In this document: one piece after another, positions 1 to 53,719 of the stretch
Layout: every line of letters starts with the position of its first letter
How positions within the stretch are numbered: position 1 is the stretch's first letter
From: Ilex aquifolium
Taxonomy: Eukaryota; Streptophyta; Magnoliopsida; Aquifoliales; Aquifoliaceae
Length of the DNA: 64,000 bases
Reading direction: 5' to 3'
Assembly (NCBI GenBank): GCA_951799425.1
Contig: OX637405.1
Location: 22,322,589 to 22,386,588, forward strand
Position numbers and translations under genes: made by a program
Notes under the pieces: generated by a model
Databases searched by the model: none
What the model was told of the DNA's origin: nothing
What the model saw: only the letters and a program-made list of their open reading frames with translations

Positions 1-307
1 CTCCCAATATCTTTTTGGGGGAATACATTACTGATTACTGCCTACATACTCAACTAAGTGCCTTCTCAGTCAGTTCCTTCCATTACAGGTTTCACAAACG
101 AAGAAGTCTTCTGAAGAGCCGATGGAGGTGAAGAGATCATCTAAGAAGGTGGAGGAGATGACGAGCTCACTCTTGGTGTTTTTTGAATAGAACCTGGGTC
201 ATTCCAAGATTCAACCTCAGCCTTGTATTTTCTACAAGTTCTACCTTTCTTAAGATGGGCGACCTTGGCCCTTACAGCTGCAGCATCTGGAGGTATCGAG
301 CTGGAAC

Positions 308-386
308 CTGAGAAATCAAAGTAAGCAGATCATTAAAATGGGAAGAAGAAAAGGAAGAACTAAAGATGACGAAATGAGAGCCTTAC
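308..386 (-). other. Candidate intron in the Tat-1 antisense gene
   Basis: On the minus strand the segment opens with gtaagg and closes with tttctcag, 79 nt in all. The flanking coding text reads ...EDPL before it and GSSS after it. In Tat-2 a GT-AG gap of 81 nt (6815-6895) sits at the homologous place, in the same phase (after the first base of the Gly codon), between ...KEVA and GSSI. Agreement of position and phase in two diverged copies is the main support. Splicing itself is inferred. Confidence 0.65.
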
Positions 387-600
387 CAAGAGGATCTTCA
401 GCACCAAATACGAATATTGGAATTGGAGTTTCAATTCTCACCTTGGAATGACTGAACCCGAATTGAGTGAGCACTGCAGGCTTGAGAAGCTCAGAATACT
501 TCTCTCGCTAACTACTCTCCAAGCCCAACAGGACTACACTCCTCAGCACTGAGATCAGGTCGGATACATGAAAATGATAAAGAGGAAACATGGTCAGCAA

Positions 601-721
601 AATAAAATAACAAGCTATGATGCTAGACAAGGCCTTCTCAGAAGAGACTTACCTAAATTTTAATAAAATAACGAGCTATGATGCTAGACCAGGCCTTCTC
701 AAAAGGGAGTTACACAAATTT
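601..721 (-). repeat. 60-bp tandem duplication in the Tat-1 antisense gene
   Basis: Positions 601-660 and 662-721 are two near-identical 60-bp copies sharing gctatgatgctagac and ggccttctca. On the minus strand each copy contains a gtaa-type donor-like motif (near 650 and 713). The homologous stretch in Tat-2 (around 6552) holds only one copy. Confidence 0.85.
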
Positions 722-1524
722 TCAGGGGCAGACCAAGCCCGAGGTACAGGGAGTGTATCAACTGCTTCCCTGGGGTTAAACTCCCACTCTTTCCCAAAAA
801 CGAAGAAGAAAAGCTTTTTTCATCCTTTGTGGGAGCTCGGAAAGTCGGAGATCAGAACTCGGGTCTTCACCTATTTGGCTATATATATGAAGGCATCAGA
901 AGGGGTGACCTTGACATTAAAGAATTTCATAAGCAAGGGCATCGTGCGGACACCAAGCTCATTCTTCTTAAAGAAAACCAGAAGCCCTACCAAAACTCCC
1001 CAGAAATTGGGAAAAAGTTGGGCAGGACAGAAGTTGAAATGTTGAAGAACATTTTTTAGGAAGGGATGCACAGGAAACCTAACGCCATTCTCGAATGAAG
1101 CAACGAAGAAACAAACCTTCTCAGGGACTATGGTATCATACGAAATATCCACGTTTGGAGTCCAGTACTGCATACCTCTTGGAAAACCAAACCGAGCAGA
1201 AAAGACGCTCAGAAAAGGAGGGGTGACCTCGCTAAAACCTACGAGGTCTGAAACCCGGGGAACGACCTTTGTGTCCCTAGCACAACCAGAAGTCCCAACT
1301 CCGCTCATCCTGGACTTCCCTTGTAGAGAGTTCTTAGATCTAGGAACAGGGCTGGACAACGGTAGAGGGACCTCTGCCTCCTCCTCGACATCGATAGAAT
1401 CGACACCAAGAAAATTATCTATCTCATCACCCCCGTCCCCCAGGTCATCCTCCTCTAGTTCAGGAGACCTATTGCCCATGGCAAGGGAGATGAATGAAAC
1501 AGTGGCTACAGAAGATGTGGACAT

Positions 1525-2237
1525 GGTAGGATAGGAGAAATGAAGGTTAAAAGAAGTGTAAAGGGGAGGAACGCTGGTAAAACAGTCCTTGAGAGCCCAG
1601 GGGTCAAGACACCAACAGCCAAAAAGAAAAATTCTAGCAATGGAATAAGGGTCCAAAAGGAGAGGAAGGAATGATAAGGAATGACCTCGATTCCTAAAGT
1701 AACAGAAACAGAAAGTCCATAAATGGAATAACCAGCTCGAATTCGAGGGATCTAGAATGCATAAGAAGCCCGAAAAGAAGAAAAGGAATAACGAGGTAGA
1801 TGACATACCTAATCAAAAGCAATCAACGATCGAATACCCGAAGTAAACTCGAAAATGGGAACAAGCCAGCAACGCAGGTGCTCCAGAGTAAATTTGGGCA
1901 CGTTTCGGTGAAACCCTAGGTCACCGGAAAATTGGGAAAGATGGAATAACAAAGGAAAAGGAAAGAAAGAAAAATATGGAGAAGAAGGCGAAGAGAATTC
2001 GAAATGATGAAGAATGCGGTTTCGTCAACTGGTGTGTTTAAGGCAAGTGTACGGACAGACACGTGGAGCTAGGGGATAAACAAACGTGCGTGAGAAATGA
2101 GGCGAAGCAACTCATTGCACGCTTATAACGCCGTAGAAATTCAAGAATGTCCCATCGTGCAAATCCTGAGGGCAAACCAGGTTAACCTCATTCACCCAAC
2201 TCAGAGGTTAGCCCCAGCTCAAGTAACTCACCTGACT
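1525..2237 (-). other. Leader and upstream region of the Tat-1 antisense gene
   Basis: Nothing recognisable is coded between the antisense start and the polypurine tract. On the minus strand a candidate leader intron runs from 1808 (ag|gtatgt) to 1694 (ttactttag), 115 nt. Tat-4 has a matching GT-AG pair at 51240-51359 and Tat-2 keeps the donor-like ctag|gtacgc at 5485. I see no convincing TATA box for the antisense transcript. Confidence 0.5.
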
Positions 2238-4437: not shown

Positions 4438-5113
4438 TGATGGCATTATTCTATCGAGGACGAGCAGAGCGTATAGATGTGTGAGATCAAGTGCGCATGT
4501 CTGAGCTACAAGGCCCGTGCAAGTTGCTGATAAATGCTTAGGGAATTGAGGAAATGGAGATGTACACAATCAAATTATAGTGGTTCACCGGCCTGGGAGC
4601 TCGGCTAGTCCACTCTTCAATGGTTGCGTTGGGTGTATTACAGTGCAGTGTGGAGGAAATTAGGGTTCTTCCTGGCTCTATCGTCTCTAGGGTTCCTCAC
4701 TCCCTCTAATTGGAGGCTTACCCTGCTTTTATAGCCTCTTGCTTACCTCTAACTCGGATTTACTTCCTATAATCATGGGATCCTTCCACCTTACTCTCCC
4801 CAATGGAGGAGTTACCTAATCTCCATAGGGCTGGTTCAGTGGACTTTTCCCGAGATCTTTGCTTTCCATCCGTAGGATCCTCCTTAAGCTTTGGAGAGGA
4901 TCTCGGTTGGTTAAGGGTTTTGTGCCTTGAATTCAGCTTGGCTATTGCTTCGGAGGTGTTTGCTATCATCTAGCTGTCCCCTCATCGTTTCCCATATTAC
5001 CTCACTTGGGGGAGCTTTAATTTTGGTTTGACGAGCTCTGCGTGCCTTACCTGACCTCCTGAGCTGAGTTCATTTCTTGGGCTCGTGCTTAGGGTTTATT
5101 TTAGGTATCATCA
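4438..5113 (-). repeat. 3' LTR of Tat-2 (676 bp)
   Basis: The plus strand reads tgatgg...gtatcatca and matches 27618-28321 over its whole length, except that it lacks about 26 bp present near 27803-27835 of the other LTR. On the minus strand a TATA box lies at 4727-4733 (ctataaaagc). Confidence 0.93.
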
Positions 5114-5752
5114 GTTGCCCCCCAGCCCTTGACTCAAGCGAGCTTGGGCAGGGGCTGAGCTATTTTTAAACCAAGCTAGACCTGCGCGTGGCTGACCTTG
5201 GCTTGCACATGATTGAAGCCTTTTGACGGTTTGCAGTAATCATGGCTTTCCTCGATTCTCGTGCACATTTCAGCCCACGTTTATTAAGCTTTAAATGCAT
5301 AAACGGCTGTCTGAACCGTCTCCTCTCACTATTCGACTTCTTTTCCCGCGATTCCAGATTTCCCGGCTTGAAGCTTTCTGACTCTTGCTCAAAACCGAGT
5401 CCTTTGTGTTTGACTTGAGGATCCGCAGTGCTCCCTTCCTTCAATTTCGCTATGGATTGTTGTTCGTTTCTCTTCCCTAGCTAGGTACGCTTTTTCTGCC
5501 CCCTTTTCATCTTTTCTCGTTCTGGATCCCTTGAATTCGAGGTGGTTATTGCATTTCTGGGTTCATAGGTTCTTTTACTTCTGGTCCTGTAACTGTTGCT
5601 TGTCTCCTCTTCCTCATTTCGTGGATTGGAGTTCTATTGTGCACATACTTGCTGTTGGAAGCTATTGTGCTGACCCTAGGGTTATTAGGGAGTGTTTGAC
5701 TGGTGTTTCTCCTCTCTATCGTTCCTTTGATCTTCCTTTTTCCTGCCCAAAC
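5114..5752 (+). other. Polypurine tract and leader of the Tat-2 antisense gene
   Basis: The first bases (gttgccccccagcc) are the reverse complement of the polypurine tract for the minus-strand element. The rest is the upstream region of the antisense gene. A donor-like ctag|gtacgc at 5485 matches the start of the candidate leader intron in Tat-4 (51240) and Tat-1 (1808), but a matching acceptor is not obvious here. Confidence 0.6.
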
Positions 5753-6551
5753 ATGTATGCCTCTTCTGGAGCCACTTGCTCCTCTGTTTCTCTCTCAGAA
5801 GGTAGGTCTGCCGAGAAGGAGACTGAATTAGGGGAGGTGGGTGACGAAATCGACAATTTCCCCGGTGTTGATGTTGTTGACTCCGAGGTCAATACCGAGG
5901 AGCTTCCCTTATCGTCTTCTCCTATGCCCCCCAAGCCTAACAAAGGCAAGGGAAAAGTCAGTGGGGTTGGGGTCTCTGGTGGTACTTCATACCTAGTAGC
6001 TGCCCTAAAGCATGCCGAGCTCGTGGGCCCTAGCAAGGTCGACCCTTCCTTTGTGAAGATTTTCATTGCCCGCTATGGGTTTCCTGCTGGTGTCCAGCCC
6101 TGGTGTCCAGACAGCTCCACTCTTTATGTTGCCAAAGTTCATAAGATGGTTTGTTTCTTTGAGGTCGCATTTGAGAATGGTCTTCGCTTTCCTCTGCACC
6201 CTTTTATCAAGAACGTTTTGCAATATTTCAACGTTTGTCCCTCTCAGCTTTCTCCTAACTTCTGGGGTGTTCTGGTGGGTCTTCTGGTCTTCTTTAAGGA
6301 CCAAAACCTCGGGGTTCCCAACATTTCCCTGCTCTTGGACTTTTTAAACGTCAAGCTGACCTCTTCTGAGGGCTTCTTGTATATCTCCAAGCGAGCCAAA
6401 GCTAGGCAGATCATCTCTCATATTCCGTCCTCCCACAAACACTGGAAATAACGTTTCTTCTTTGTTGGGGGCACCAACTGGGAATACAACCCTGCTGATA
6501 GAACGGACACTCTTGGTATTCCCAAGGCCTGGACTATTCCAGAGAACTTGG

Positions 6552-6631
6552 GTGAGTCCTTGCTTGAGTTAACTGATTTCTGTTTTGAGAATCATAAGTT
6601 TCTGACTCTGCTCCGCTTTCGTTGTATTTAG
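6552..6631 (+). other. Candidate first internal intron of the Tat-2 antisense gene
   Basis: An 80-nt gap opens with gtgagt and closes with tatttag. It falls after the first base of a codon (TTG G|). Tat-1 shows a gtaact donor-like site at the same codon position, but its far side is altered. Less secure than the second intron. Confidence 0.5.
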
Positions 6632-6814
6632 GCACCCGACCTGAGCTTAGCGCAGAGGACGAGGAGGTAAGGTTGAAATTGATCAAGTGTGACCCGCGAA
6701 GGTACCCCGAGCTTATCCAACCCTGGGTTCTGGTTGAGAGAGGATTTAGTCCTCCTGGGATAACGATAGAAGCCCCGCCTCCCATTTCTGTTGTCATACC
6801 TAAAGAAGTAGCAG

Positions 6815-6895
6815 GTATCCTTTTTCCAATAGGTTGCGCTGCCTTCCTTCCTACTTCCTCATATATGCGTAACTGGCTTGGCTCAGATCTTCCAG
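6815..6895 (+). other. Candidate second internal intron of the Tat-2 antisense gene
   Basis: An 81-nt gap opens with gtatcc and closes with cttccag. Position and phase match the 79-nt gap at 308-386 (minus) in Tat-1, with GSS coded directly after both. Confidence 0.65.
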
Positions 6896-7269
6896 GGTCT
6901 TCCATAATGAGGTCCACTTCCGAAGAACTTCAAGCCAAAGTCGAGCTATTGAAAAAGAGTGGGAAAGGCAGCAAACGCAAGGCTCAAGTCGGCTCTGGAA
7001 GCGGCCCCGCTACCAGGGCTAAAGTCCCAAGGTTGGGGGTGCCCCCTAGCCAGGAGGCTTTTAACGCTCAGAGCTCCCTTGAGCACATGAGGGAGGAGTA
7101 TAGCACCATCAATGAGGCGAATGGTAAGCTTTGTGAGGATCTTGAGGTGCAGAAAGACCTGGTCAAGCAGAGGGATGGTGAGATTGCAGAGTTGAGGGAT
7201 GAAGCCACCACCTTGTGGGCCTCTGGATGGGTTGCCTTTTAGCGCAAGGCCTCCAAGACCTTCCCAGAT

Positions 7270-7274
7270 ATGGA
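7270..7274. repeat. Target site duplication of Ath-2, left copy (atgga)
   Basis: atgga precedes the left LTR, and the same 5-mer follows the right LTR at 18864-18868. Confidence 0.92.
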
Positions 7275-7478
7275 TGATTAAGGCCGAATAATCACACTTA
7301 TTATTAGGAATGATTGATATTTTAATTGTAAAAGTGTGATAAATATAAGAGTTTATCCAAGTTTGGGCGTTATGCTATTAAATGTTGATTTGTGATAACT
7401 TGCAGGACAAAAGCATAATTTTGGAGTTAAATTATGGAAAGACCAAGCGTAGCTCAAAGGAAAACACACTAGATCACG

Positions 7479-7580
7479 CGTCCGGACGGAAGAAGAATAC
7501 GCGTCCGGACGCGAGTGGCAGAAAGGCAACGAACTCACTAGAAGTTGCGTCCGGACGGAAGATAAACACGCGTCCGGACG
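7479..7580. repeat. Four CGTCCGGACG palindromes upstream of the Ath-2 TATA box
   Basis: Four perfect 10-bp palindromes lie in about 100 bp, arranged as two pairs (12-13 bp between copies in a pair), about 70 bp upstream of the TATA box. They are GC-rich islands in an AT-rich LTR. The right LTR has the same set with one copy altered. The motif returns eight times at 14468-14718. Confidence 0.9.
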
Positions 7581-7646
7581 CGTGTCGAAGATCTGCTGAT
7601 GCCAGACTTAGAATTTTGACGAGAATCAATCTCTTTTCTAGGGGAT

Positions 7647-7653
7647 TATAAAT
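7647..7653 (+). promoter_or_regulatory. TATA box of the Ath-2 5' LTR
   Basis: tataaat followed by acc, about 70 bp downstream of the palindrome cluster. The 3' LTR copy is at 18161-18167. The same ten bases, tataaatacc, recur at 14731 before the second ORF. Confidence 0.75.
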
Positions 7654-8353
7654 ACCAATTGAAGACTTTGTAAGGGCATCTTTTTTCCATTCTTTTTGCT
7701 CACGAATTCTTGGTGTATTTTGCAATTCTTTTATGGCCGGCTAGAAGGCTAAGCTAGGGCTAGGGAAAACCTCTCAGTGAAGTACGGTATTTTTATAGAC
7801 TTTGTAATTAATGATTTATGTTATTGTGTTAATCTATTTTCTAATCTTTTAGCAAAGTCTTTATTCTGTAAAAACTCCTGAGTTGTTGTGCCACGTACAT
7901 CGATTGCTTGAGTTTCCCTGCGAATAAATGACTGGTTATTCCACGCTTGAAGTGTTAGCATTGTTTCATAAAATAATATGATTAATGTATTATTCAGGTT
8001 TCTGAATAATCCTTTGATCATAACTTTTGGCCTCATGACTTGATTTGTTATTTGGGTTAACCGACATTTAATTCCTTTTTCAAATTAAGCCCCAAGTCTT
8101 TTATTATTACCGTATGGAATTGAGAGGGAGTACCTAATGCTCTAGTATTTTTATTACTGATTTTAATCATCCAAGTCAACTGTTTTCAATCAAAACTCTT
8201 CAAACAAACTTTTTATTTTTTTTTATTTTTAGTATTTGTGTGATTGTTTACTTGTTACAATTCCTTGTGGATTCGACCTCGGACTTCCGAGAATATATAT
8301 TACTCTGCTCAACCTACGCTTGGGTTTACACTTTTAAAGTTGAAGCATGTTTT

Positions 8354-8371
8354 TGGCGCCGTTGCCGGGGA
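8354..8371 (+). promoter_or_regulatory. Primer binding site of Ath-2
   Basis: tggcgccgttgccgggga lies six bases after the LTR end. This is the familiar plant Athila primer site for minus-strand DNA synthesis. Confidence 0.9.
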
Positions 8372-8525
8372 ATTGAAAAAAAAAACAAGGAGCCATCGCA
8401 TCTTTTGAGGTTTTCGGTATTTGCGATTCATCGGAGAACCGGTAACTTCGTTCCAATTTCTTGTATTTTCTGGCATTTTATTTATTTTTCGTTATTTATT
8501 TATTTAGATTTCGATTTTATTTAGT

Positions 8526-9640
8526 TTGTTTAGTTGTTTTATGAGCTCTTGGCATCGTGATTTGAGTGGACGTTTAATAAGAGAGGAGTTAGATACTTTG
8601 TTTGGAAATCTATTTGATTCATCTGATTTAAATTTTTATGTGCACACAATGGCTGTTAATCCTAACATTAATAGGCAGAATGAACTTCCCGCACATGAGG
8701 ACCATATTGATAGAGTAAGCAATCATGATGAGAATGATGTGGATAATTTGAATGTTAATCAGGGTAGGACTTTGCGTGAATATCTACAACCCGTACTTCT
8801 CACTGAACCGTCATACATCATTTTCCCATTGAATGCCATTCATTTTTTTTTCAAACCTGGCATGATTCAATTACTTCCAAAATTCCTTGGTATAGGTGAA
8901 GAAAACTCATATTTGCACATTAGAGAATTTGGGGATGTCTGTGCTACGTTCCATGACCAGAATGTTGCAATGGATATAGTCAGGCTGAAGTTATTTCCTT
9001 TTTCATTAAAGGAAAAAGCTAAAACTTGGTTATATTCGTTGAGATCTAGGTCTATAGGAACATGGCAGGAGATGCAGAAACAATTTTTAAAGAAATTTTT
9101 TCCCACACATCGCACAAACTCTTTGAAAAGACAGATAATGAATTTTTCCCAAAAGGAGTCTGAAAATTTTTATCAAAGTTGGGAAAGATTTAAAGACCTT
9201 CTTGCATCTTGTCTACATCATGGTTATGAAAGCTGGCGCATAATAAGTTTCTTTTATGAGGGTTTAGGCCCACAGCTGCGTCAATTTATTGAAATGATGT
9301 GTAACGGTGATTTTATGAATAAGGAACCAGATGATGCTTTTGACTATTTAGACCAATTAGCCGAGAATGCACAATCTTGGGATACTACATCCCAGGAACC
9401 ATCTAAAGGTAAAACTGCACAATCATCATCATCTGGTGGAGGTAAGTATCAATTGAAGGAGGAAGATGATATTGGGGCTAGGATTGCCACCTTAGCTAGG
9501 AGGGTAGAAGCTATGGAATATAAAAGGGTTAATGAGGTTGACACAATACCTGTTGAGGAAGTCTGTAGTTTTTGTGACACCCCCGGACACCCAGTTAAAC
9601 AGTGTCCAACATTGCCTGTTTTAAAAGAGGTTTTGCATGA
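8526..9640 (+). pseudogene. gag: Ath-2 gag region
   Basis: The region codes the capsid-like Retrotrans_gag domain: LFPFSLKEKAKTWLYSL, then FLKKFFPTHRTNSL and FYQSWERFKDLL (about 8985-9200). A CCHC zinc knuckle (CSFCDTPGHPVKQC, 9564-9605) follows. Known role: packaging element RNA into cytoplasmic particles. The ATG at 8526 is the first in a frame that continues well into pol, so gag and pol are probably one polyprotein. A later Met near 8650 (MAVNPN) is an alternative start. Confidence 0.85.
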
Positions 9641-12600
9641 TCAAGCAAATGCTGCAAACAATTTTTCAAAACCTTACAATAATCCTTATTCAAATACATA
9701 CAATCCGGGGTGGAAGAATCACCCCAACTTTAGTTGGAGGAATGAAAATAATGCATCACAACCACCTCAACAAAATTCCTTCAATGCTGCACCTTATGTC
9801 CCACCTCCTAAGAGAAGTATGGATGAAGCATTGACACAGTTCATGCAGAGTCAGTTAAATTATAATAGGCAAAATACTCAGGCCATTGATGATCTCAGAG
9901 GTACAGTCAATCAAACCACACAGGCTATAAATGACATTAGGAGTGCAATCACTAAACTAACTATTGACCCGTGTCATCAGGAGAAAGGTAAGTTCCCAGC
10001 ACAACCACAGCCAAATCCACAGGCTCAATTTTTTGTGAATGATACTGGCACTCCTAGTACTGAGCATGATCAGGTTAAGTCTATCACCACACTTCGTAGT
10101 GGGAAAGAAATTGATAAAACCATTCCTTCTCAAACTCAAAAATTTGAGAAAATTTCAAAACCTACGGAGAGTGATGATAAACTTAATCCCTCTGAAGTTA
10201 ATGAGCCTGAGAAGTATGTTCCTCGTGCACCATTCCCACAGAGATTGCTTACTTCTACCAAGCCTCATATGCACAATGATATGTTAGAAGTCTTTAAGCA
10301 GATAAAAATCAACATTCCCTTGTTGGATGCCATTAAACAAATACCTTCTTATGCAAAGTTTTTAAAGGAATTATGCACTGTAAAAAGGAAATTGAATGTG
10401 CAAAAGAAGGCATTTTTAACTGAGCAGGTTTCCTCCATCATACATCATAACACTCCACTGAAGTACAAAGACCCAGGTTGTCCTACCATTTCTTGTGTCA
10501 TAGGCAACCACAAAATTGAACAGGCTTTATTGGATCTTGGAGCTAGTGTGAACTTGCTCCCATATTCAGTATATGAACAATTAGGGTTAGGTGAATTAAA
10601 ACCCACTTCGGTTACACTCCAATTAGCTGACAGATCAATAAAAGTACCGAGGGGTATGGTGGAGGATGTCTTAGTACAGGTTGACAAATTTTATTTTCCT
10701 GTGGATTTCATAATTTTGGATACTCAACCTGTATTAAATGCTAATGCTCAAATTCCTGTTATTTTAGGCAGACCATTCCTAGCAACTTCAAATGCTTTAA
10801 TTAATTGTAGGAATGGTGTGATGAAATTAACTTTTGGGAATATGACATTAGAGCTCAACATTTTTCATGTGTGCAAACAACCAGAGAATGTTGATGAAGA
10901 TGTGCATGAGGTTAACATGATTGAGTCTCTTGTTCCAAGCAGATTATATGATTCTTCTCTATTTGATCCACTTGAAGCATGCTTGCTTGAACAATCTTCT
11001 ATGATAGAGATAGATGAACTCAATTCTGAAATTTCTGTTTCCACTGATGTGTTAAACTCTTTACAGGTACTTGAAATGAAAGAGTTGAGACAGAAATTTG
11101 AGGAGCTTCCACCAAGAATTGACCTACCAATCCCATCTAGTGAGAAAGCACCTAAGCTTGACCTCAAGCAGCTACCGGTTGAGTTAAAGTATGCATTTCT
11201 GGGAGATGATGCAACTTATCCGGTAATAATTTCTTCTCAATTGAATTCAGCACGGGAAGGTATGTTATTACAACTTCTTAGAGAACATAAAAAGGCAATT
11301 GGCTGGACTTTAGCTGATATAAAAGGAATTAGTCCATTAGTTTGCACTCACAAGATTTATTTGGAAGATAATGCTAAAACATCTAGGGAAATGCAACGTC
11401 GACTGAATCCACATATGAAAGAAGTTGTAAAGAAGGAAGTGCTGAAATTGTTAGACATAGGAATTATTTACCCTATTGCAGACAGCAAATGGGTAAGCCC
11501 CACACAGGTAGTTCCTAAGAAATCTGGAGTCACTGTAGTTGCCAATGAAAATAATGAACTTGTGCCAACTAGGACTGTTACTGGTTGGAGAATGAGCATA
11601 GACTACAGGAAATTAAATTCTGTTACTAGAAAAGATCACTTCCCTTTACCTTTTATGGATCAAATTTTGGAAAGGGTAGCATCACATTTGTATTATTGTT
11701 TCCTAGATGGCTATTCAGGATATAATCAGATTGAAATTGCCCTAGAAGACCAAGCAAAAACCACATTTACTTGCCCTTTTGGTACTTTTGCATATCGCAG
11801 GATGCCCTTTGGACTTTGCAATGCACCCGCGACTTTTCAAAGGTGCATGCTAAGTATTTTCAGTGACATGGTAGAGCGTTTTCTTGAAGTTTTCATGGAT
11901 GATTTTACTGTTTTTGGTGATGCTTTTGATGAATGCTTGTCAAATTTAGAGAAAGTGCTTCTTCGATGTGAAGAAAAGAACCTCGTGCTTAATTGGGAGA
12001 AATGCCACTTTATGGTTCAAAAGGGAATTGTTCTTAGTCACATTGTCTCATCTGAGGGAGTCCAGGTAGATAAAGCTAAGATAGAATTAATTGCTAATTT
12101 ACCTTCTCCCAAAACCCTTAAAGATGTTAGATCTTTTTTGGGTCATGCTGGTTTCTATCGAAGGTTCATAAAAGATTTTAGCTCTATATCTAGACCACTT
12201 TGCAATCTCTTAGGGAAGGATATACCTTTTGAGTGGGATGGGTTATGCCAAGAGGCTTTTGATAAGTTAAAGGGCATGCTCGTCACTGCTCCAATTATGC
12301 AACCCCCGAATTGAAGTCTTCCTTTTGAAATTATGTGTGATGCCAGTGACTATGTCGTAGGGGCAGTTTTAGGACAAAGGAATGAGAAAAAGCCACATGT
12401 CATCTACTATGCTAGTCGAACCTTAAATAGTGCACAGATGAATTATTCTACCACAGAAAAGGAATTACTGGCAGTAGTATTTGCACTGGACAAATTTAGG
12501 TCATATTTAGTAGGATCCCCCATTGTCATCTTCACAGACCATGCAGCTCTTAAATATTTACTGACAAAGAAAGATGCCAAACCTAGACTGCTTAGGTGGA

Positions 12601-14055
12601 TCCTCCTACTCCAAGAATTTGATATAACCATTAAAGATAAAAAAGGAGTAGAGAATGTAGTGGCTGACCATTTGTCTAGACTTGTGAGTGACATACCCAT
12701 TGAGACGGTGCCGATCAAGGACACTTTTCCTGATGAACAATTGCTGGCAGTTTCGGCAGTACCTTGGTTTGCTGATATAGTGAATTTTCTTGTTACAGGT
12801 AACATGCCACCAGCTTGGACTACATTGGATAAAAGGAAGTTCTTAACTGAAGTGAAAAGTTTTTTCTGGGATGACCCATATCTTTTCAAGTATTGCTCAG
12901 ATCAAATTATCCGGAGATGTGTGCCTAATGATGAGGTAAGTAGCATTCTATCATTTTGTCATTCGGGAGCATGTGGAGGCCACTTTTCTATGAAAAAGAC
13001 CGCTGTAAAGGTTTTGCAATGCGGATTTTATTGGCCGACAATTTTTAAAGATGCATATAATTTTTGTAAGGTGTGTGAGCGATGTCAAAAACTGGGGGGA
13101 TTAACCCGTAGAAATATGATGCCTCTAAATCCAATTTTGATAATATAAATTTTTGACTGTTGGGGCATAGATTTCATGGGACCTTTTCCCCCATCTTTTG
13201 GATATATGTACATTTTAGTGGGAGTAGACTATGTTTCTAAGTGGGTCGAAGCTATACCATGTCGGACAAATGATCATAAAGTTGTTTTGAAATTTTTAAA
13301 AGAAAATATTTTGTCCAGGTTTGGTATACCTCGAGCCATTATCAGTGATGGGGGATTGCACTTTTGTAATAAACCTTTTGAGAGTCGAATGAAAAAATAC
13401 GGTGTCACGCATAAAGTTGCGACTCCTTATCACCCTCAGACAAGTGGTCAAGCAGAGCTTGCCAATCGGGAAATTTCTTACATTTTGGAAAAAACGGTGA
13501 ACCCAGATCGTAAAGATTGGTCGTTACGACTAATCGATGCATTATGGGCATACCGAACTGCATATAAAACCCCGATTGGTATGTCTCCGTATAGATTGGT
13601 TTATGGAAAAGCTTGTCACTTGCCTGTGGAACTAGAGCGTAAAGCATATTGGACCATTAAAATGTTCAACTTTAGTTTGGACCAAGCCCGCACCGCACGA
13701 AAATTACAACTAAATGAGCTTGAGGAGATCCGGAATGAGGCATATGAGAATTCTAGAATTAGTAAAGAACGCATGAAGGTGTTTCATGATAAGAATATTG
13801 TGCGTAAAATCTTTACACCTGCACAGAAAGTTCTTCTTTATAATTCTAGACTTCACATCTTCAAAGGAAAGCTTCGAACCAGATGGAGTGGTCTGTACAT
13901 TGTTAAGGAGGTATTCCCCTATGAGAACAATAGAGATTGAGAATCCCCGTAATGGGAACACCTTTAAAGTTAACGGACAACGACTGAAACCATTCTTGGA
14001 GGAAGGTATTGTCGAAGTGGAATCCATCGAATTGATGGAGCCCCACTATGAATAA
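9641..14055 (+). pseudogene. pol: Ath-2 pol region: protease, reverse transcriptase, RNase H, integrase
   Basis: Domains in order: a Gln/Asn-rich spacer; protease with LLDLGASVNLLP (about 10525); reverse transcriptase with WRMSIDYRKLNSV (about 11590) and the catalytic FMDD (11892-11903); RNase H with MCDASDYVVGAVLG (about 12335), TTEKELLAVVFAL and FTDHAALKYLL; integrase with a zinc-binding HHCC part (about 12960-13090) and core motifs [19 protein letters not shown] and [10 protein letters not shown] (about 13220-13470). These make the enzyme set for copying and inserting the element. The region looks almost whole, with about two or three breaks. Confidence 0.9.
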
Positions 14056-14224
14056 TCTGTCTCTAACCATTTGGTGTATACTGTTGTATATTAGTGTCTG
14101 TTTTTTTCTCTTTAATTTTCTACAGATGCATGAGCACATTTTACGCGCATCCGGTATGGTCTCTCTATCCCTTATTTGATTTTACTCTCCGGATTCATAC
14201 ATTGAGGACAATGCAAATTTTTGA

Positions 14225-14241
14225 GTGGGGGGGGGGGGGTG
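14225..14241 (+). promoter_or_regulatory. Internal poly-G, polypurine-like tract of Ath-2
   Basis: gagtgggg continues into an uninterrupted run of about 13 G, after pol. It resembles the 3' polypurine tract at 17776-17788 (aagtgggggggtg). Athila elements are known to have such a tract between pol and the second ORF. The exact G count may be unreliable. Confidence 0.6.
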
Positions 14242-14467
14242 GAGCATTCACTTGATAATACAAAGTATACTGGATTTTGAATTTGAGCTTTGTGCACATG
14301 CAACTGTGTTACTGTTTTGTTTTTATTGTGTTTATTGTTTCATTTTTTTTAGATAGTCAAGTAGTATTTTTTTTAGGGACTTAGGAATTTTTATGAGAAG
14401 AATGGAGCCATTTGGGGAGGAATATGAAAATTTTTCTAAGTGTAGAGAAAGAACTCACTGGAACACC

Positions 14468-14718
14468 CGTCCGGACGCATAAATAAAGAGCACAACATAC
14501 TGGAAGTCGCGTCCGGACGGAACCAACGAGTCTGAACTCACTGGAAAACGCATCCGGACGGTTATTTGTCATGCGTCCGGACGGGAAAGCCAACCGTTTG
14601 AAATTCATGAGGCGCGTCCGGACGGTATAACCCCATGCGTCCGGACGTGTGATTTTTAAGGCTAATTAAGACGGCAGTTGAGGCGCGTCCGGACGGTTTA
14701 ACCCCATGCGTTCGGACG
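14468..14718. repeat. Eight CGTCCGGACG-type palindromes before the second ORF
   Basis: Copies lie at 14468, 14510, 14551 (one change), 14574, 14615, 14638, 14686 and 14709 (one change). Several follow the paired pattern ggcGCGTCCGGACGGt ... catGCGTCCGGACG seen twice in a row. The same motif occurs in the element's LTRs ahead of the TATA box. Confidence 0.92.
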
Positions 14719-14730
14719 CGTGTGAAAAAT

Positions 14731-14737
14731 TATAAAT
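14731..14737 (+). promoter_or_regulatory. Internal TATA box of Ath-2
   Basis: tataaat (then acc) is preceded by the eight palindromes and lies about 100 bp before the ATG at 14834. Palindromes-then-TATA copies the LTR layout, which suggests a separate promoter for the second ORF. The promoter activity is inferred. Confidence 0.6.
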
Positions 14738-14833
14738 ACCGACTGCCTGATCAGAATTTCTTGCACTGCAAGCTTCCAAGACCAGATTACATTCCTTCTT
14801 CTTCTTCTATATCTGCTTTTCATCACGTTTTGC

Positions 14834-15920
14834 CATGGCACCACCTAGAGCTTCTAGTTCAAAGAGACCCCGGGTAAATACTCAGGAGGAGGAGGACACC
14901 ACCTTTGATCCCGTTCGTTTCCAAACTTTGGAGGCACGGGTAAGATTTTTTAAATAATACGCCCAAAAACCTATAGTTTGCGAGAGAAAAATTGAATACG
15001 AGGACTTCGCTCGATTGGGAGTCCGAGATATTATCACTTTTAGACGTTGGGCAGGTTTCATGGGCAAAGAGTGGTTGTGTATCCCCATCTTGGCAAGAGA
15101 ATTCTTCAGCAACGCGGACGATCTCGGGAATGGCCTCATACAGACATATGTTCGGGGTATGGAGGTTAGGGTGGATGGTTTAGCCATTGCTAGGATAATT
15201 GGAATGACTCAGGCACGGGTGGTCAACCCGGACTACCCCCAGGCCTACCCCGCAGATGAGGTCGGTCGAGAACTTCTAGGGGATGATGATTTTGTGTGGA
15301 CGGGCAACACTAAGTACCTTCAACAGGGTGATCTGACCAATAAGTACAAGATACTGAACCTCATTTCAGTATCAAATATTTTGCCCTTGCTAATAAAAAA
15401 TCACATCTACCTGGACCGTGCTCGCCTGTTATATGCCATGGGTACAGGTAAATCCATAGACCTCCCCTCCCTGATTTTTTCTGAAATGAGGCGAGCTATC
15501 GTGGACCCGAAAAAACCATCTCTCCCTTTTGCTGGTTTGGCTACTGCCTTGTGCGAGCAAGCAGGAGTGGTGATTGATGCCACTATGGAGCGGGCAAAGA
15601 AAGTGGCGGCACTCAACTCTGGCACCCTGTTGAAAAGTCAGAGTGTAGCCAGGCCTGTTGCAGGAGAGAGGGGTCCAGGTGGTGAGCAGGCAGCACCACC
15701 AGGGGTGGAGCAGGGTGAGGAGGATTGGGATCAGTTCCTCAATATCGATGAGGACTTTGAGATACCAGTGGATGAGGACACTGATCCCAGGACTGACAGG
15801 CAGATTTTGTTTGAGCTGTTGAGAGGGCAGAGAGAGATGAGGAAGGAGATGAGAGAGTTGAGGGCGCAGATGAGGGGGCTAGGGCAGAGTTCTCAGGATC
15901 AGGCAGGCCCCTCATCTTAG
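14834..15920 (+). pseudogene. Ath-2 second ORF (putative plant transposon protein, env-position ORF)
   Basis: Begins MAPPRASSSKRPR at 14834, with a basic N-terminus. The body has FRRWAGFMGKEWLCIP, AREFFSNADDL and YVRGMEVRVDGLAIARI (about 15030-15200). From memory this matches the 'putative plant transposon protein' domain often found after pol in Athila elements. The C-terminus is acidic and then coiled-coil-like (TDRQILFELLRGQREM..., about 15790-15880). I see no signal peptide or clear membrane segment in the readable part, so an envelope role is not supported. Perhaps one break near the start. Confidence 0.8.
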
Positions 15921-16828
15921 GATGATTTCTTCTAGGTCCCGGTGTTTCGAATCTTTTCTTTTTTGGTTATTTTCCAGTTTTCTGTAGAAATCAAAGCCTA
16001 TTTTGGGTAGTTTTTGTTAGACTTGATTTCTTTTATCTTTTGAATATGCATTGTACTTGAATAATCATTATTATATAAAATGCATATTTTGTTTGGTGTG
16101 TTATCAAATATCTAAATAACATTGTTATGAATAAGTTGATACCACATAATAGAAATAATTTGCTCAACTTTGAATTTTCAACTGTTTAAGCATCACATAG
16201 AACTCTATTCTATATTTTTGTATCTCATATCATGTTCTTATAAAAACTCACAATTTGTGCACTTTAGACTTTGCCAAGTTGAAAATTTGTTAGGTATTTT
16301 ACTTTGAGAACTTGAAACATATAGTGGAGATGCATGAAAACTCTAGTGAATTTTGTTCCAATCTTTCTTGGAGGGTTATTTACATTTACTCAATAAAAAA
16401 TATTTTTATTCAGCTAATCTCCTTCAATAGTCTCATTATTTTTGTTTTGGTTAACACCAATATTGTGAATGATTGCTTGATTTTGAATTATTTGCATAAG
16501 AAGTGTGTTATCAAAAGCTCTTGAGATATGATTTTAGGCCATCTTTGTCATTATTTGAGCCTAAACCTTATTCTTTGAATATTATTATCCCTAGAAGCCA
16601 TGATTGAGCCTTTAAAGCAAAATTTTATTTCTTATACCCAACATATAATAACCAAGCCAATGAGAAAAAATAATATCTTTTACCCTTGGTTATCCTGAGA
16701 TTAAACTTTTATTGTTTATGTAATTTGGGAGATGTTGGTTAAGAAAAGAAAAAAAAAAAAAAAAAAGAGTTTTACATACTTGTGAATATTTGCATTAGAT
16801 GTCTAGCTGTGAAAAAAAAAACAGATTG

Positions 16829-16860
<32 letters not shown>

Positions 16861-17775
16861 ATAGCAAACATGTGTTTGAAAAGAAAAAAAATATGAGCAA
16901 GTGATGTAAATTGTGCTTCTAAAGGATGGAGAATGAAAAGGCTATGGAAAGAAGTTTGGTTGTGTAATGTACATGTTCTCTTGGGATAATCTTTTGAATT
17001 CCTGAATATCCTTCGTTTCAAAACTCTAATCCCAAGGCCCCATTACAACCTTAAATAAAAACCTATTTGATCTCAAGGGTGTATTGATGGATGCATGACT
17101 TGTGTGAATAAGAAAGAGAATGGTGATTATTTATTTATTGTGTGTTGATTTCCTTTCATGAGATTATGTCAAATCCTCTTCTTTTGGATTACGTTTTTTT
17201 TAATGGAACATGTGAGCACTATTTTGTGTTGATTTAAATATCATCCACTCACATGTGATACTTGAGTGTATAATCACTATAATCTGAGAGAATTATTTCA
17301 TGAGTGAATTATCTGTTGAGATTTGGCATTGAGACGAATAGTTGATAGTTGTAGAGGTGATTACCGGATAAATTACTGACTTGGTATAGTTAATTCACAC
17401 TACACACGAGTTTATATGAGAATATGATAAGTGCATGCATTTATATATCGCATAGTTCTATATGTTGTTTTACATGTGCTTATAAAAAGTTGCATCTTAG
17501 AATTTCAATATTGTGGTAGCAACCTATATTATAAAGTTGTTATTCAGATGTTTGATCACAGGGTGATGTTTGTGGGTATCATCTCTGGAAACCCTCACGA
17601 GACTATACTCGTCCACTAGGGAAAACCTAGGGGTTTAAAGGCTTGTTGCATATGCTAAATGCAATCGTGAGTCCTACGAAAGTGGTTTTGTCTTATTGCA
17701 CTTTGTTTTGTTTCCTAAAATCAGTGGTTGTATTTGTTTTATTGATATTTGTCTTACTAGGGACTAGCAAGATCT
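15921..17775 (+). other. Long AT-rich 3' non-coding region of Ath-2
   Basis: No coding signal is visible. A-rich microsatellite-like runs lie at about 16745-16765 and 16810-16862. Long 3' untranslated stretches are usual for Athila elements. Confidence 0.8.
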
Positions 17776-17788
17776 AAGTGGGGGGGTG
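17776..17788 (+). promoter_or_regulatory. 3' polypurine tract of Ath-2
   Basis: aagtgggggggtg abuts the right LTR start at 17789. This is the primer site for plus-strand synthesis. Confidence 0.85.
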
Positions 17789-18863
17789 TGATTAAGGCCG
17801 AATAATCACACTTATTATTAGGAATGATTGATATTTTAATTGTAAAAGTGTGATAAATATAAGAGTTTATCCAAGTTTGGGCGTTATGCTATTAAATGTT
17901 GATTTGTGATAACTTGTAGGACAAAAGCATAATTTTGGAGTTAAATTATGGAAAGACCAAGCGTAGCTCAAAGGAAAACACACTGGATCACGCGTCCGAA
18001 CGGAAGAAGAATACGCGTCCGGACGCGAGTGGCAGAAAGGCAACGAACTCACTGGAAGTTGCGTCCGGACGGAAGATAAACACGCGTCCGGACGCGTGTC
18101 GAAGATCTGCTGATGCCAGACTTAGAATTTTGACGAGAATCAATCTCTTTTCTAGGGGATTATAAATACCAATTGAAGACTTTGTAAGGGCATCTTTTTT
18201 CCATTCTTTTTGCTCACGAATTCTTGAGTGTATTTTGCAATTCTTTTATGGCCGACTAGAAGGCTAAGCTAGGGCTAGGGAAAACCTCTCAGTGAAGTAC
18301 GGTATTTTTATAGACTTTGTAATTAATGATTTATGTTATTGTGTTAATCTATTTTCTAATCTTTTAGCAAATTCTTTATTCTGTAAAAACTCCTGAGTTG
18401 TTGTGCCACGTACATCGATTGCTTGAGTTTCCCTGCGAATAAATGACTGGTTATTCCACGCTTGAAGTGTTAGCATTGTTTCATAAAATAATATGATTAA
18501 TGTATTATTCAGGTTTCTGAATAATCCTTTGATCATAACTTTTGGCCTCATGACTTGATTTGTTATTTGGGTTAACCGACATTTAATTCATTTTTCAAAT
18601 TAAGCCCCAAGTCTTTTATTATTACCGTATGGAATTGAGAGGGAGTACCTAATGCTCTAGTATTTTTATCACTGATTTTTAATCATCCAAGTCAACTGTT
18701 TTCAATCAAAACTCTTCAAACAAACTTTTTATTTTTTTTTATTTTTAGTATTTGTGTGATTGTTTACTTGTTACAATTCCTTGTGGATTCGACCTCGGAC
18801 TTCCGAGAATATATATTACTCTGCTCAACCTATGCTTGGGTTTACACTTTTAAAGTTGAAGCA
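17789..18863 (+). repeat. 3' LTR of Ath-2 (1,075 bp)
   Basis: Nearly identical to 7275-8347, with about a dozen substitutions and one-base indels by hand count. It has the same palindromes (one altered), TATA box at 18161-18167 and end gttgaagca, and is followed by atgga. Confidence 0.96.
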
Positions 18864-19195
18864 ATGGACTTCAACTTTCCTGTCCAAACTGAGGAGGAAT
18901 TGGAAGAGTCTGACTCTGATGGCGAGGAAGATATCCCGGCACTTCCAGCTAAAGCCTTAAACCAGGATGTGCCTACTCCTCCAGCTATTCCACGTTCTAC
19001 TCCCTTCTCTACTGACCTCGTGACCGAGGCCCTTGCACAAGATTTGCTAGTAGACAGAGTGGAGGTTCTTGGGGCCAGCTCTCCTAAGAATTCTGTTACT
19101 CTAGCTTCTGGGTCCTTGCCTGCTGAGCTGCCGGGCTTCTCTCCTACTACTAAGGCTCCATTTGTTGAACGTCAAAATTCCCCTTCAGAGACTTA
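18864..19195 (+). pseudogene. Antisense accessory gene of Tat-2, tail after the Athila insertion
   Basis: After the second atgga the text is again that of the Tat-2 antisense gene: an acidic stretch (EEELEESDSDGEEDIPAL) and a Pro/Ser/Thr-rich low-complexity tail ending in a stop at 19193-19195. Tat-3 (41105-41415, minus) and Tat-4 (58348-58522) have comparable Pro/Ser/Thr-rich tails. Confidence 0.7.
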
Positions 19196-19815
19196 GCATT
19201 TTTTTTCCTTTTTTTAACTCTGGATTCGTACTTTATGTACTTCTGACTTCATATTCTGAAATTTGACTTTTGTTTTGAAAAGTGGTGTACTGATTTCTAA
19301 CTTGAGACAGGATTCTGTTTTTACTTTGCCTTGCCTTTGCATATTCTCGTTGTATTCCCCTGCCTTGCCTTTGCATATTCTCCTTGTATTCCCCTTGCCC
19401 CCCTTCTTTAAGGGGTACTTCAGTTCTTCTTAAAGAAGAATAATTGAGTTTGAGAGGCCAACTGAGCTTTTGCTACGTAAGGAAGAACTCCCTAAGAGTT
19501 GTAGAGCTCAGAATTGACGCCTTCAGAGCTCTTCCCTTCTGCTTGGTTCCCCCATAGGGGTGCCTGTTGCTTCATCACTTACCTGAATGGCAAGAAGTCT
19601 GATGTTGGGGTCTTTCCCACACATATCCATTTAAACTGTGCTGTTGAGTGAATGAGAACCTCCAAGGCAAGGGTGCCAGGAGGTCCGTGTAACTATACGA
19701 ACTGTCCTTAGCTCTAAGCGATCTGAGAAGTTTCTTTAAAGAGATCTTTTAGAGGTTTATTTTCTTTGAGTGGTAATTTCCCCTTGATAATTTGGCGGCA
19801 TGCGGACCTCTCCTT
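19196..19815. other. Spacer between the two convergent coding units of Tat-2
   Basis: Non-coding. It contains a 34-bp tandem duplication (19327-19360 and 19361-19394, unit beginning tgccttgcctttgc) and ends at the hairpin array. Nothing else is recognised. Confidence 0.7.
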
Positions 19816-20155
19816 GTGAACCGAGGAGCCCATCGTGAGCTCTGGGGCTCTTCCTATGAACCGAAGAGCTCTTCGCGAGTTCCTGGGCTCTTTTTATGAA
19901 CTGAATAGTTCAGCGTGAGCTACGTGGCTCGTATTATGAACTGAATAGTTCAGTGTGAGCTACGTGGCTCGTGCTATGAACTGAATAGTTCAGTGTGAGC
20001 TACGTGGCTCGTATTATGAACTGAATAGTTCAGTGTGAGCTACGTGGCTCATATTATGAACTGAATAGTTCAGCGCGAGCTACGTGACTCGTATTATGAA
20101 CTGAATAGTTCAGCGTGAGTTACGTGGCTCGTATCATGAACTGAATAGTTCGGCG
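19816..20155. repeat. Tat-2 tandem hairpin array, 40-bp unit
   Basis: About eight to nine units of 40 bp, most uniform from 19895 to 20150. Each unit holds two short inverted repeats: gaactgaatagttc and gagctacgtggctc. The leftmost units are more diverged (gagctctggggctc). The array lies between the end of the minus-strand pol (20237) and the end of the plus-strand antisense gene (19195). Confidence 0.92.
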
Positions 20156-20236
20156 TTCTAGGAATGTTGAATAGCTACCCATGAATAAATCAAAAGCTTG
20201 CCGCTTTATTGAAAATCTCTTCGTTACAAAGGAGAC

Positions 20237-21640
20237 TTATTGAAAAAACCTTTTAAGGTGTTCTGCATTCCAACAGTGAGGTAAGATTTTTCCTTCCTCT
20301 GTTTGCAGCTCGTAATTTCCCGGTCTGATCACCCTTGATATGATGTAGGGTCCTTCCCAATTAGGTCCCAGCTTCCCATGAGTGGGGTCCTTTCTCACAG
20401 GCAGGAGTTTCTTAAGCACTAAATCCCCAGCTTTAAAGCTTTTGTGCCTAACCCTTCTGTTATAATACCTTGCTGTTTTCCTTTGGTAACTTTGGATGCG
20501 ATATAGAGCTCTGTCTCTCCTTTCATCTAGGAGATCGAGGTTCAGTAGGAGAGATTCATCATTGTGCTCAACGTCTGCAAACTCAACCTTAGGTGATTGG
20601 AGCCCCACCTCGATAAGTGTCACTGCCTCGGTTCCAAAAGCCAAAGCAAACGGGGTTTCCTGAGTTGTAGATCTGGCAGTGGTCCTGTAGGCACACAGCA
20701 CTGCAAGGATGTATTCTACCCACTTACCTTTTAGGTTTTCTAGTTTGGTCTTCAGAGCTGTCTTTATGGTTCTGATGGTGACCTCTGCTTGTCCATTGGA
20801 TTGAGGATGTGCCGGTGCTGAGAATTAGTTCTTTATCCCGAGCTCAGCACAAAATCTCTTAAACTTTGGGTTGTCAAACTGCTTTCCATTGTCAGATACA
20901 ACTGCTCTGGGAACCCCAAACCTGCAAACTATAGATTTCCAAACAAAGTTTTGCACCTTTTGTTCGGTGATTGTTGCCAAATGTTCGACCTCCGACCATT
21001 TGGTGAAGTAATACACCCCTATAATGGCAAACTTGCATTGTCCCATACCGGTGGGAAGGGGTCCAAGTATATCCAGACCCCATTGTTGGAAAGGTCATGG
21101 GTTTATCACCGAGGTCAATAGCTCGGGTGGACAATGGGAAATGTTGGCATGCTCCTGGCAAGTCTTGCATTTCTTGACCAATTCAGTGGCATCCTTGAGC
21201 ATAGTGGGCCAATAATACCCTTGCCTCAGTTTTTTTCCTGCCAAGGCTCGAGCTCCGATGTGATTGCCACAGATTCCCTCATGTACTTCTCTGAGTATAT
21301 AGTTGGCATCTTCGTCTCCCACGCATTTAACGAGAGGTGCTGAAAAACCTCGTTTGTACAGATTTCCCTGCAGCAAAAAAAATCTAGCTGACCTGGCTCT
21401 CAGTTTGGAGGCCTCCTTGGGATCGTCTGGCAAGGTTCCGTTCTGCAGGTATTCTATGATGGAGTCCATCCAACTCGGCTGAGCTACGATTGGGAGCACT
21501 TCTTCTTTCTCAATGCTCACTGAAGGCTCTAGAAGGTGCTCCACTGGTATTAGCATATCCAAGTCCTCTTGCGAGGCAGTTGCTAACCTTGCCAACGCAT
21601 CTGCTTGTGAATTTTCTGTCCTGGGAACGTGTCTGACCTT
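20237..21640 (-). pseudogene. Tat-2 integrase region
   Basis: On the minus strand the order is an HHCC zinc-binding part (CGNHIGARALAGKKLRQGYY then CKTCQEH, about 21200-21300), a DDE core (YYFTKWSEVE and VVSDNGKQFDNP, about 20860-21000), then AYRTTARSTTQETPFAL and a C-terminal part ending NAEHLKRFF. The integrase joins element DNA to the chromosome. About two or three breaks lie in the pol of this copy. Confidence 0.85.
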
Positions 21641-21689
21641 AACCTGCACAAACTTCTTGATTAGTTCTTGCACCTTTCTGAGGTAAAGG

Positions 21690-21965
21690 ACCATTTTTTT
21701 TCGCCCCTCACTTCGTAAGACTCCTCTATCTGTTTCACCACTAGTTGGGAGTCACTACAGATCTCCAGTTGTTCTGCCTCCATGGAGTGAGCAAGATTGA
21801 GCCCAGTGATGATAGCTTCATACTCAGCCTCGTTATTCGAGGCCTTAAACCCAAACCTGAGGGCATATTCGACATCTATCCCGTCCGGAGAGGTCAGAAT
21901 TAAACCTGCACCGCTTCCTTGAGCATTAGCAGCCCCATCTACTGAAAGTTTCCAAACGAGGAGGT
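21690..21965 (-). pseudogene. Tat-2 second, archaeal-type RNase H
   Basis: The minus strand codes WKLSVDGAANAQGSG, SNNEAEYEAIITGL and CSDSQLVVKQI, the D-E-D pattern of the archaeal-type RNase H. It follows the ordinary RNase H directly. Having both is a known hallmark of the Tat lineage and is the firmest family evidence here. Confidence 0.88.
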
Positions 21966-21989
21966 CAGGTACCAGTTGTGTGACCTCCA

Positions 21990-22330
21990 TGGGTGTTGCT
22001 GTAGTGAACTCTGCGATGAAATCTGCCAAAATCTGTCCTTTGATTGCAGTTCTCGGCTTATATCTGATATCGAACTCACTAAGCTCTATAGCCCATTTAA
22101 CCAACCTCCCTGAAGACTCTGGCTTATGCAGTACTTGCTTCATCGGCTGGTCTGTTGGAACCTCGATGGTGTGAGCTTGGAAGTATGGCCTAAGTCTCCT
22201 GGCTGTAGTTACCAAGGCTAAAACAAGTTTCTCCATCTTTGGATATCTCTCATCTGCCCCCCTCAGAGCTCTGCTGCAGTAGTAGACCGGTTGCTGAGCT
22301 CTGTCTCGCTCCCTAACCAATGTTTTACTA
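21990..22330 (-). pseudogene. Tat-2 RNase H (ordinary copy)
   Basis: YYCSRALRGADERYPKMEK, LRPYFQAHTIEVPTDQP and KWAIELSEFDIRYKPR form the RT-linked RNase H of Ty3-gypsy elements. It is followed by ADFIAEF, a common link to the second RNase H. Confidence 0.85.
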
Positions 22331-22368
22331 GTTGAGAAATCTGAAACAGCTAGGTAGAGAGTAAGGAC

Positions 22369-23150: not shown

Positions 23151-23559
23151 CTTCTTCCTTGATTGCTTTGGTGCGGAGGAGTTTGCTGACCTCCTCATTG
23201 ATTACCCTTTGTCTATCTGATGCAAAACTTCTTCTCTTCTGCTTAATGGGCTTGCAAGTGGGGTTTACGCTTAGCTTGTGGGTAATAACCGAGGGGTCAA
23301 TACCTTCCATGTCTTCTTGCTTCCAAACAAATACCCCAATATTTTCCTTCAAGAAATGAATGAGAAGATCCTTAATTTCTCTACTCAGTTTGGACCCGAT
23401 GTAAACAAGGTGTTCTGGCTCCTCGTCAAGCTGAATAGGTTCCAGCTCTTCTGATGACATTGGTCTCGTGTCCAGCTCATCCCTCATGTCGAGCTCATCC
23501 ACATGGATACTTTCAACTTCTTTTTGCTTCATCGAAGCCGTGTAGCATTCCCTGGTTAT

Positions 23560-27440: not shown

Positions 27441-27600
27441 GGGGGGATTAGTCTCTTGGACGTTCTCGGGTTGTCTGTCGTTGGTAGCTTCCTACTGATC
27501 CTGCATCCGGGGTGGGTTTGTTTGGCTTCTGCTCATGTTTCGAGTTGATACCATCAGTCACTGAGAGATCAGTTTATTTGTAAATAGGAACAGTCGTTCC

Positions 27601-51603: not shown

Positions 51604-51639
51604 CTATCTTGACATAGCAGACGGATCGAAGATCCCAAT

Positions 51640-53700: not shown

Positions 53701-53719
53701 AAAATCAAATATTTATCAA

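Follow-up and report, generated by a model that had tools for sequence, protein, structure and literature searches.

A probable multi-exon, spliced gene on the antisense strand of Tat/Retand retrotransposons in Ilex aquifolium

Retrotransposons and antisense genes at the locus

We analyzed a 64,000-nt window of the Ilex aquifolium genome (assembly GCA_951799425.1, contig OX637405.1, positions 22,322,589-22,386,588, forward strand), which by self-comparison consists of nested plant repeat DNA (Table 1). The initial annotation had treated Tat-2 as an element apart from the pol copy at 20237-27491. Instead, self-comparison shows that the two are parts of one minus-strand element, the Tat-2/Tat-3 element, into which another element is nested at 7275-18863. 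The LTRs of the nested element (7275-8347 and 17789-18863) are 99.0% alike and it is bounded by the target duplication (TSD) ATGGA. This element is young, and we take it to be of the Athila type. One of its ORFs (14958-15920, sense direction) matches Pfam PF20167 (Transposase_32). The gag end of the gag-pol stretch in the Tat-2/Tat-3 element was assigned from position, and the ORFs at 26778-27491 and 20237-20824 of this stretch have no Pfam match. Tat-4 is arranged like the Tat-2/Tat-3 element, with an insertion in its antisense gene whose right end, TTTTTCTTGTAGTA, presumably resembles a CACTA-type end; the remnant of exon 5 beyond it has 62% identity to P0121 over 74 aa. For Tat-1, the 3' part alone is present in the window. 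A second set of tandem repeats, also found by self-comparison, lies at 58915-59490. The lineage name Tat/Retand was assigned from element structure. Calculated from the coordinates without the nested element, the stretch from pol to the 3' LTR of the Tat-2/Tat-3 element is about 3.5 kb; in Retand elements this stretch measures 2,933-6,566 bp (PMC11963269).

Table 1. Features of the window in order of position; a slash marks an exon-intron border.
Feature	Positions	Strand	Remarks
Tat-1 exon 4	70-307	-	decayed
Tat-1 intron 3	308-386	-	phase 1, 79 nt, TTG/GTAAGG...TCTCAG/GTTCC
Tat-1 exon 3	387-567	-	frameshifted; its two ends read in two frames
Tat-1 intron 2	568-713	-	GTAACT...TTTCAT; acceptor mutated, CAT for CAG
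Tat-1 exon 2	714-1524	-	ATG at 1524; TRP28 exon, with stops; PF04195 E 2.6e-7 for 871-1500
Tat-1 putative leader intron	1694-1808	-	GTATGT...CTTTAG, 115 nt
3' LTR of Tat-2/Tat-3 element	4438-5113	-	91.8% match to 27618-28321
Tat-2 region aligned to leader intron	5485-5583	+	donor GTACGC kept; acceptor place is CTG
Tat-2 exon 2	5753-6551	+	TRP28 exon; PF04195 E 2.2e-9
Tat-2 intron 2	6552-6631	+	phase 1, 80 nt, GTGAGT...ATTTAG
Tat-2 exon 3	6632-6814	+	
Tat-2 intron 3	6815-6895	+	phase 1, 81 nt, CAG/GTATCC...TTCCAG/GGTCT
Tat-2 exon 4 head and part of exon 5	6896-7274	+	joined by internal deletion
Nested LTR element	7275-18863	+	inside Tat-2 antisense gene; gag, protease, RT, integrase domains
Tat-2 end of exon 5	18869-19196	+	acidic C-terminus, stop at 19196; resumes after nested element
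Tandem repeats	19808-20160		between antisense gene and pol of Tat-2/Tat-3 element
gag-pol stretch, Tat-2/Tat-3 element	20237-27491	-	RVT_1, RVT_3, Integrase_H2C2 matches; opposite to antisense gene
5' LTR of Tat-2/Tat-3 element	27618-28321	-	self-comparison
Tat-4 putative leader intron	51240-51359	+	GTACGC...TTTTAG, 120 nt
Tat-4 start of exon 2	51529-51612	+	ends at insertion
Insertion in Tat-4 antisense gene	51613-56065		right end given in the text
Tat-4 remnant of exon 5	56060-56526	+	coiled coil, final EEEE then stop

The gaps first noted in this DNA were said to lie in genes that run against their element, and ORFs and self-comparison bear this out for all of them: a TRP28-type gene runs against its element in Tat-1, Tat-2 and Tat-4 alike. 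This gene is the known TRP28 (PF04195) gene of Tat/Retand Ty3/gypsy elements, and its copies in the window are damaged. PF04195 scores above the curated cut-off in two window copies and is found in 15/15 members of a relative set that includes these two. A hemopexin match is weak (2/15 members, best E 0.0024), and TRP28 is the only Pfam family with real support. A search for solved-structure (PDB) relatives at E up to 1 returned none, and two AlphaFold2 models of the TRP28 exon had pLDDT values of 54.5 and 54.9, too low for a fold search. A published survey of Retand elements (PMC11963269) found a TRP28 antisense ORF in 97% of recently active clusters, counting 104 antisense ORFs and tabling 63 clusters, some of them with Smc-like ORFs. 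The gene described here is the same in carrying PF04195, in its antisense orientation, in its position between pol and the 3' LTR, in the tandem repeats nearby, and in the coiled-coil-like (Smc) ORFs seen in some elements. It differs in that the survey lists its ORFs separately (PMC11963269), whereas we find exons of what is predicted to be one gene with three conserved coding introns. The main text of the survey does not contain the word "intron", and our literature search found no report of introns in this antisense gene; we know the Grande gene23 (2013), Retand (2006) and Steinbauerova (2011) papers from citations of them, so an earlier report may exist.

Intron edges and phases across copies

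The initial annotation described GT-AG gaps at 308-386 (minus strand) and 6815-6895 (plus strand) at the same codon and phase before a shared GSS, and both the edges and the alignment agree. The two introns interrupt the same codon in phase 1, seven codons past an aligned V and ahead of the shared GSS, and the exon lengths on either side are equal between the copies. Between conserved anchors, which were hand-chosen by the analyst, Tat-1 and Tat-2 share two in-frame GT-AG pairs, one of which is this intron. When 20,000 dinucleotide-shuffled pairs were examined as a control, 29 shared any in-frame GT-AG pair and 4 shared a GT-AG pair with as many identities as Tat-1/Tat-2. The reading frame of Tat-1 shifts across the 79 nt of intron 3. 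The Tat-2 intron 3 in the window (81 nt) has no stop, and its length is an exception because 22/29 measured family copies have 83 nt at this place. This was the one coding intron originally claimed; the claim stands, and two further introns had been missed, intron 2 (6552-6631; 568-713 in Tat-1) and intron 4. At intron 2, exon 2 ends in PENL followed by the donor GTGAGT, and exon 3 opens with xRPxLxAED. Intron 4 (phase 0, ...GAAT/GTAAGT...CAG/) lies between exon 4 and the coiled-coil exon 5 in family copies; the window Tat-2 copy lost it together with about 773 nt in an internal deletion near 7047. A 61-bp tandem duplication (88.5%) at 601-722 overlaps intron 2 of Tat-1.

For a genome-wide view we scanned 800,232,872 bases of the same genome for exon 2 and scored 150 of the 7,717 first-look candidates. 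We read 58 copies, including the Tat-2 copy of the window: the 30 best matches (Tat-2 family, 88-100% identical), 20 diverged copies from lower down the scored list (about 69-82% identical), and 8 Tat-1-like copies (about 49-55% identical to Tat-2 exon 2). In these 58 copies, which were picked as best matches and are mutually related so that counts are not independent, the antisense gene is interrupted at fixed places by three coding introns about 80 nt long, in phases 1, 1 and 0. Among introns measurable at 40-150 nt, both edges are GT-AG at intron 2 in 25/28 Tat-2-family and 18/19 diverged copies, at intron 3 in 17/29 and 13/19, and at intron 4 in 25/28 and 20/20. Intron 3 edges are often broken: taken singly, GT is present in 22/29 and AG in 23/29 Tat-2-family copies, and each is present in 16/19 diverged copies, counting as misses two copies (L041 and L043) for which the donor place is probably misplaced since their exon 3 ends differ. 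For the Tat-1 window copy and seven Tat-1-like copies, leaving out one (L057) in which no exon 3 was found, GT and AG are present in 8/8 and 5/8 at intron 2 and in 7/8 and 7/8 at intron 3. Intron 4 is weakly supported in the Tat-1-like copies, being measurable in 4/8 and having both edges in one. Most intron lengths are not divisible by 3; this holds for introns 2, 3 and 4 in 26/28, 27/29 and 25/28 Tat-2-family copies and in 14/19, 15/19 and 15/20 diverged copies. The GT and AG of the introns fall at breaks in conservation. Conservation of GT-AG edges in further Tat copies had been named beforehand as one half of a test, and the edges are indeed kept across the copies of this genome.

A leader gap ahead of exon 2 had also been proposed, and the claim survives in part: the gaps at 1694-1808 in Tat-1 and 51240-51359 in Tat-4 have GT-AG edges at aligned places, but the acceptor is not common to all families. 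The donor TAG/GTA is invariant in Tat-1, Tat-2 and Tat-4 and is found in 43/50 Tat-2-family and diverged copies and in 7/8 Tat-1-like copies (L057 does not align). An acceptor AG is present in Tat-1, Tat-4 and 5/7 aligned Tat-1-like copies. The same place reads TG in 29/30 Tat-2-family copies, with a gap in the remaining one, and has no AG in 5/5 aligned diverged copies, one of which has AG a base further on. The 169 nt ahead of the ATG (5584-5752; 1525-1693; 51360-51528) align gap-free across three diverged copies, and in the frame of the ATG they are coding-like. Given the TG acceptor and these coding-like 169 nt, the leader intron is unproven outside the Tat-1 and Tat-4 types. The last 63 nt of the supposed leader intron likewise align gap-free and are coding-like in Tat-1, Tat-2 and Tat-4, and in Tat-4 there is one stop in the coding-like stretch ahead of the ATG. 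For an N-terminal coding extension through the leader the frame is open and coding-like, yet the exon 2 ATG is kept in 30/30 Tat-2-family copies, and exon 1 showed no in-frame ATG in any of the three window copies. A block in 5485-5583, GGATCC...GAGGTGGTT, is kept in three diverged copies and, we presume, resembles an intron-mediated enhancement motif.

Reading frame, selection and antisense placement

Removal of the introns restores a constrained reading frame, as seen in both stop counts and dN/dS. The spliced frame runs for about 550 codons from the ATG into exon 5. In the diverged copies it contains a mean of 1.42 stops and is free of stops in 11/19; in the Tat-2 family the mean is 2.89, with zero stops in 2/27. 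These counts left out copies without three measurable introns (3/30 Tat-2-family, 1/20 diverged and 6/8 Tat-1-like copies), and the two Tat-1-like copies with all three measured have a mean of 4.5 stops, neither being stop-free. Unspliced, the means are 16.4 (minimum 7) for diverged and 24.3 (minimum 5) for Tat-2-family copies. With a single intron left in place (2, 3 or 4), the means are 16.3, 13.3 and 5.7 in the diverged copies and 15.4, 12.0 and 7.4 in the Tat-2 family. To measure selection, we compared 27 Tat-2-family with 19 diverged copies, a set that holds no Tat-1-like copy. Pooled dN/dS in the spliced frame is 0.19, 0.19, 0.40 and 0.14 for exons 2, 3, 4 and 5 (the first 100 codons of exon 5), indicating purifying selection. 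In the two other frames it is 0.73-1.74, and the contrast between frames is large, with pairs that are not independent. Between Tat-1 and Tat-2, dN/dS for exon 2 is 0.24 (225 codons).

The antisense placement is regular across the genome. When 150 scored aORF places were compared with 150 scored RT matches, 23 aORF places had a scored RT within 20 kb, and in 23/23 the aORF is opposite in strand to RT. RT also lies downstream of the aORF in 23/23 pairs, at a distance of 5.4-8.1 kb in 22; the 23rd pair is the window copy with the nested element. The antisense gene therefore belongs regularly to the element and carries introns that run antisense to the genomic RNA. A 120-nt probe over the spliced exon 2/3 join had 338 candidates, of which 40 were scored. 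Their 65 matches include no copy lacking intron 2 and never pass the join by more than 4 bases; an intron-free copy of like age should outscore them. The initial annotation had argued that antisense orientation lets introns escape loss at replication, and the lack of an intron-2-less copy among those scored and the 23/23 opposite RT placements fit that argument.

Relatives, origin and meaning of the antisense gene

A protein search returned 2,410 relatives, of which 120 (P0001-P0120), many from other assemblies, were listed and examined. To compare the end of exon 2, we aligned 45 rows, comprising 43 of the 120 listed relatives and two window copies. Past the end of exon 2, the first residue is R in 27 rows, H in 9, C in 5, G in 2 and L in 2, and is followed by E in 42/45. 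A split codon N/GT codes for R, C, G or S, which fits 34/45 rows; the donor GT is not kept in the other 11/45 (H or L), where the nine H rows would fit a G-to-A change at CpG and the two L rows would not. Pair identity among the 45 rows falls from 0.654 over the 30 residues before the exon 2 end to 0.273 over residues +4 to +20. A shifted frame would give an exon 3 motif in four ORF tails, compared to 0 of 41,590 control positions, with a motif that was defined after such tails had been inspected. In P0124 the intron 3 donor is at the same codon. In P0128, from another genome, intron 2 is present and exon 3 is fused to exon 4 without intron 3, so intron 3 was either lost there or gained elsewhere. 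Searches of viral and prokaryote contig collections found no relative. Searching proteins with the C-terminal part as a single sequence found no match, and a three-row profile of this part found 10. Many exon 2 ORFs among the 120 relatives stop just ahead of tryptophan codons (SSHK-W, GGRH-W), a pattern that C-to-T decay of TGG within methylated repeats would produce.

Ogre is a Tat-group element. Its gag-pol intron is, as here, a spliceosomal intron within a plant Ty3/gypsy element, but there the intron is in sense orientation and only some of the transcripts are spliced (PMC6317226), while the introns described here are antisense. Maize Grande gene23 resembles our gene in being an antisense accessory gene, and has its own promoter and a nuclear protein (as cited in PMC7264820 and PMC11963269). 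Spliced antisense genes are known in deltaretroviruses: hbz of HTLV-1 and APH-2 of HTLV-2 are antisense retroelement genes whose transcript is spliced and whose product is a nuclear protein with a regulatory role (PMC10186651). They resemble the gene described here, for which splicing is predicted, and differ in belonging to animal viruses, in a transcript start in the 3' LTR and in encoding a different protein; here there are three predicted coding introns. A review has asked for attention to antisense and spliced transcripts (PMC7264820).

We considered several other explanations for these data. The gaps might be fast-evolving spacers or in-frame insertions between separately translated antisense ORFs rather than introns, as would suit the stop-free 81 nt of the window Tat-2 intron 3, which leave the frame open, and the separate counting of antisense ORFs in the published survey (PMC11963269). 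This is very improbable given the 83 nt at intron 3 in 22/29 measured family copies, lengths that are mostly not multiples of 3, constraint on the downstream exons in the frame that splicing gives, and the position of GT and AG at conservation breaks. A gene that is spliced might also be a relic, its introns drifting on in dead copies of a gene that no longer matters to the element. The stops in many copies and the broken window copies are what a relic would leave; dN/dS of 0.14-0.40 over four exons between families, 0.24 for exon 2 between Tat-1 and Tat-2, and 11/19 diverged copies without stops in the spliced frame make it unlikely. It has been proposed for antisense ORFs that the transcript acts mainly as RNA, through double-stranded RNA or control of silencing, with coding secondary (PMC7264820). 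We consider this improbable here, given that such a role would not need the protein-level constraint in the four exons tested.

Capture from a host gene together with its introns, as suggested in the initial annotation, would explain why the gene has introns, which antisense capture could keep. We find no support for it: only TRP28 is backed in Pfam, no solved-structure relative was found at E up to 1, and, according to the survey, TRP28 has no similarity to sequences outside transposable elements (PMC11963269). In addition, intron 3, absent from P0128, may have been gained, and we give host capture little chance.

Based on these data, we propose that the antisense TRP28 region of Tat/Retand elements is very probably one spliceosomal multi-exon gene, whose introns persist since the genomic RNA is sense and introns are not spliced there. 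It is most likely that the TRP28 ORF and the coiled-coil ORF are exons of one gene, with the predicted order exon 2 (TRP28), a phase 1 intron, exon 3, a phase 1 intron, exon 4 (a linker), a phase 0 intron, and exon 5, which would encode the coiled coil and an acidic tail. The antisense pre-mRNA would be spliced in cells to give a TRP28 and coiled-coil protein of an estimated 600-700 residues or so. In the sense genomic RNA the introns would read CT...AC, stay unspliced and be copied into each new element. Grande GENE23 and HBZ suggest by analogy that the protein may bind DNA in the nucleus as a dimer and tune the element's transcription or integration.

It is quite possible, and we advance it tentatively, that an LTR-retrotransposon lineage keeps a true multi-exon gene, long selected, with introns sheltered on the antisense strand. 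Such an intron-bearing gene would have entered the lineage once as DNA or been assembled there, given the matching introns in the elements of other genomes, and the introns may by themselves restrict the protein to nuclear antisense pre-mRNA and never the packaged genome. The separate-looking pieces on the reverse strand of such elements are probably one spliced gene. If so, the annotated protein is cut short, with TRP28 as its N-terminal part and the coiled coil as its C-terminus, and what should be expressed and tested changes, as the TRP28 product has so far been judged from single ORFs (PMC11963269). Splicing of this gene would also provide a clear rule by which introns can be retained in mobile elements and would make the origin of the gene testable through intron positions.
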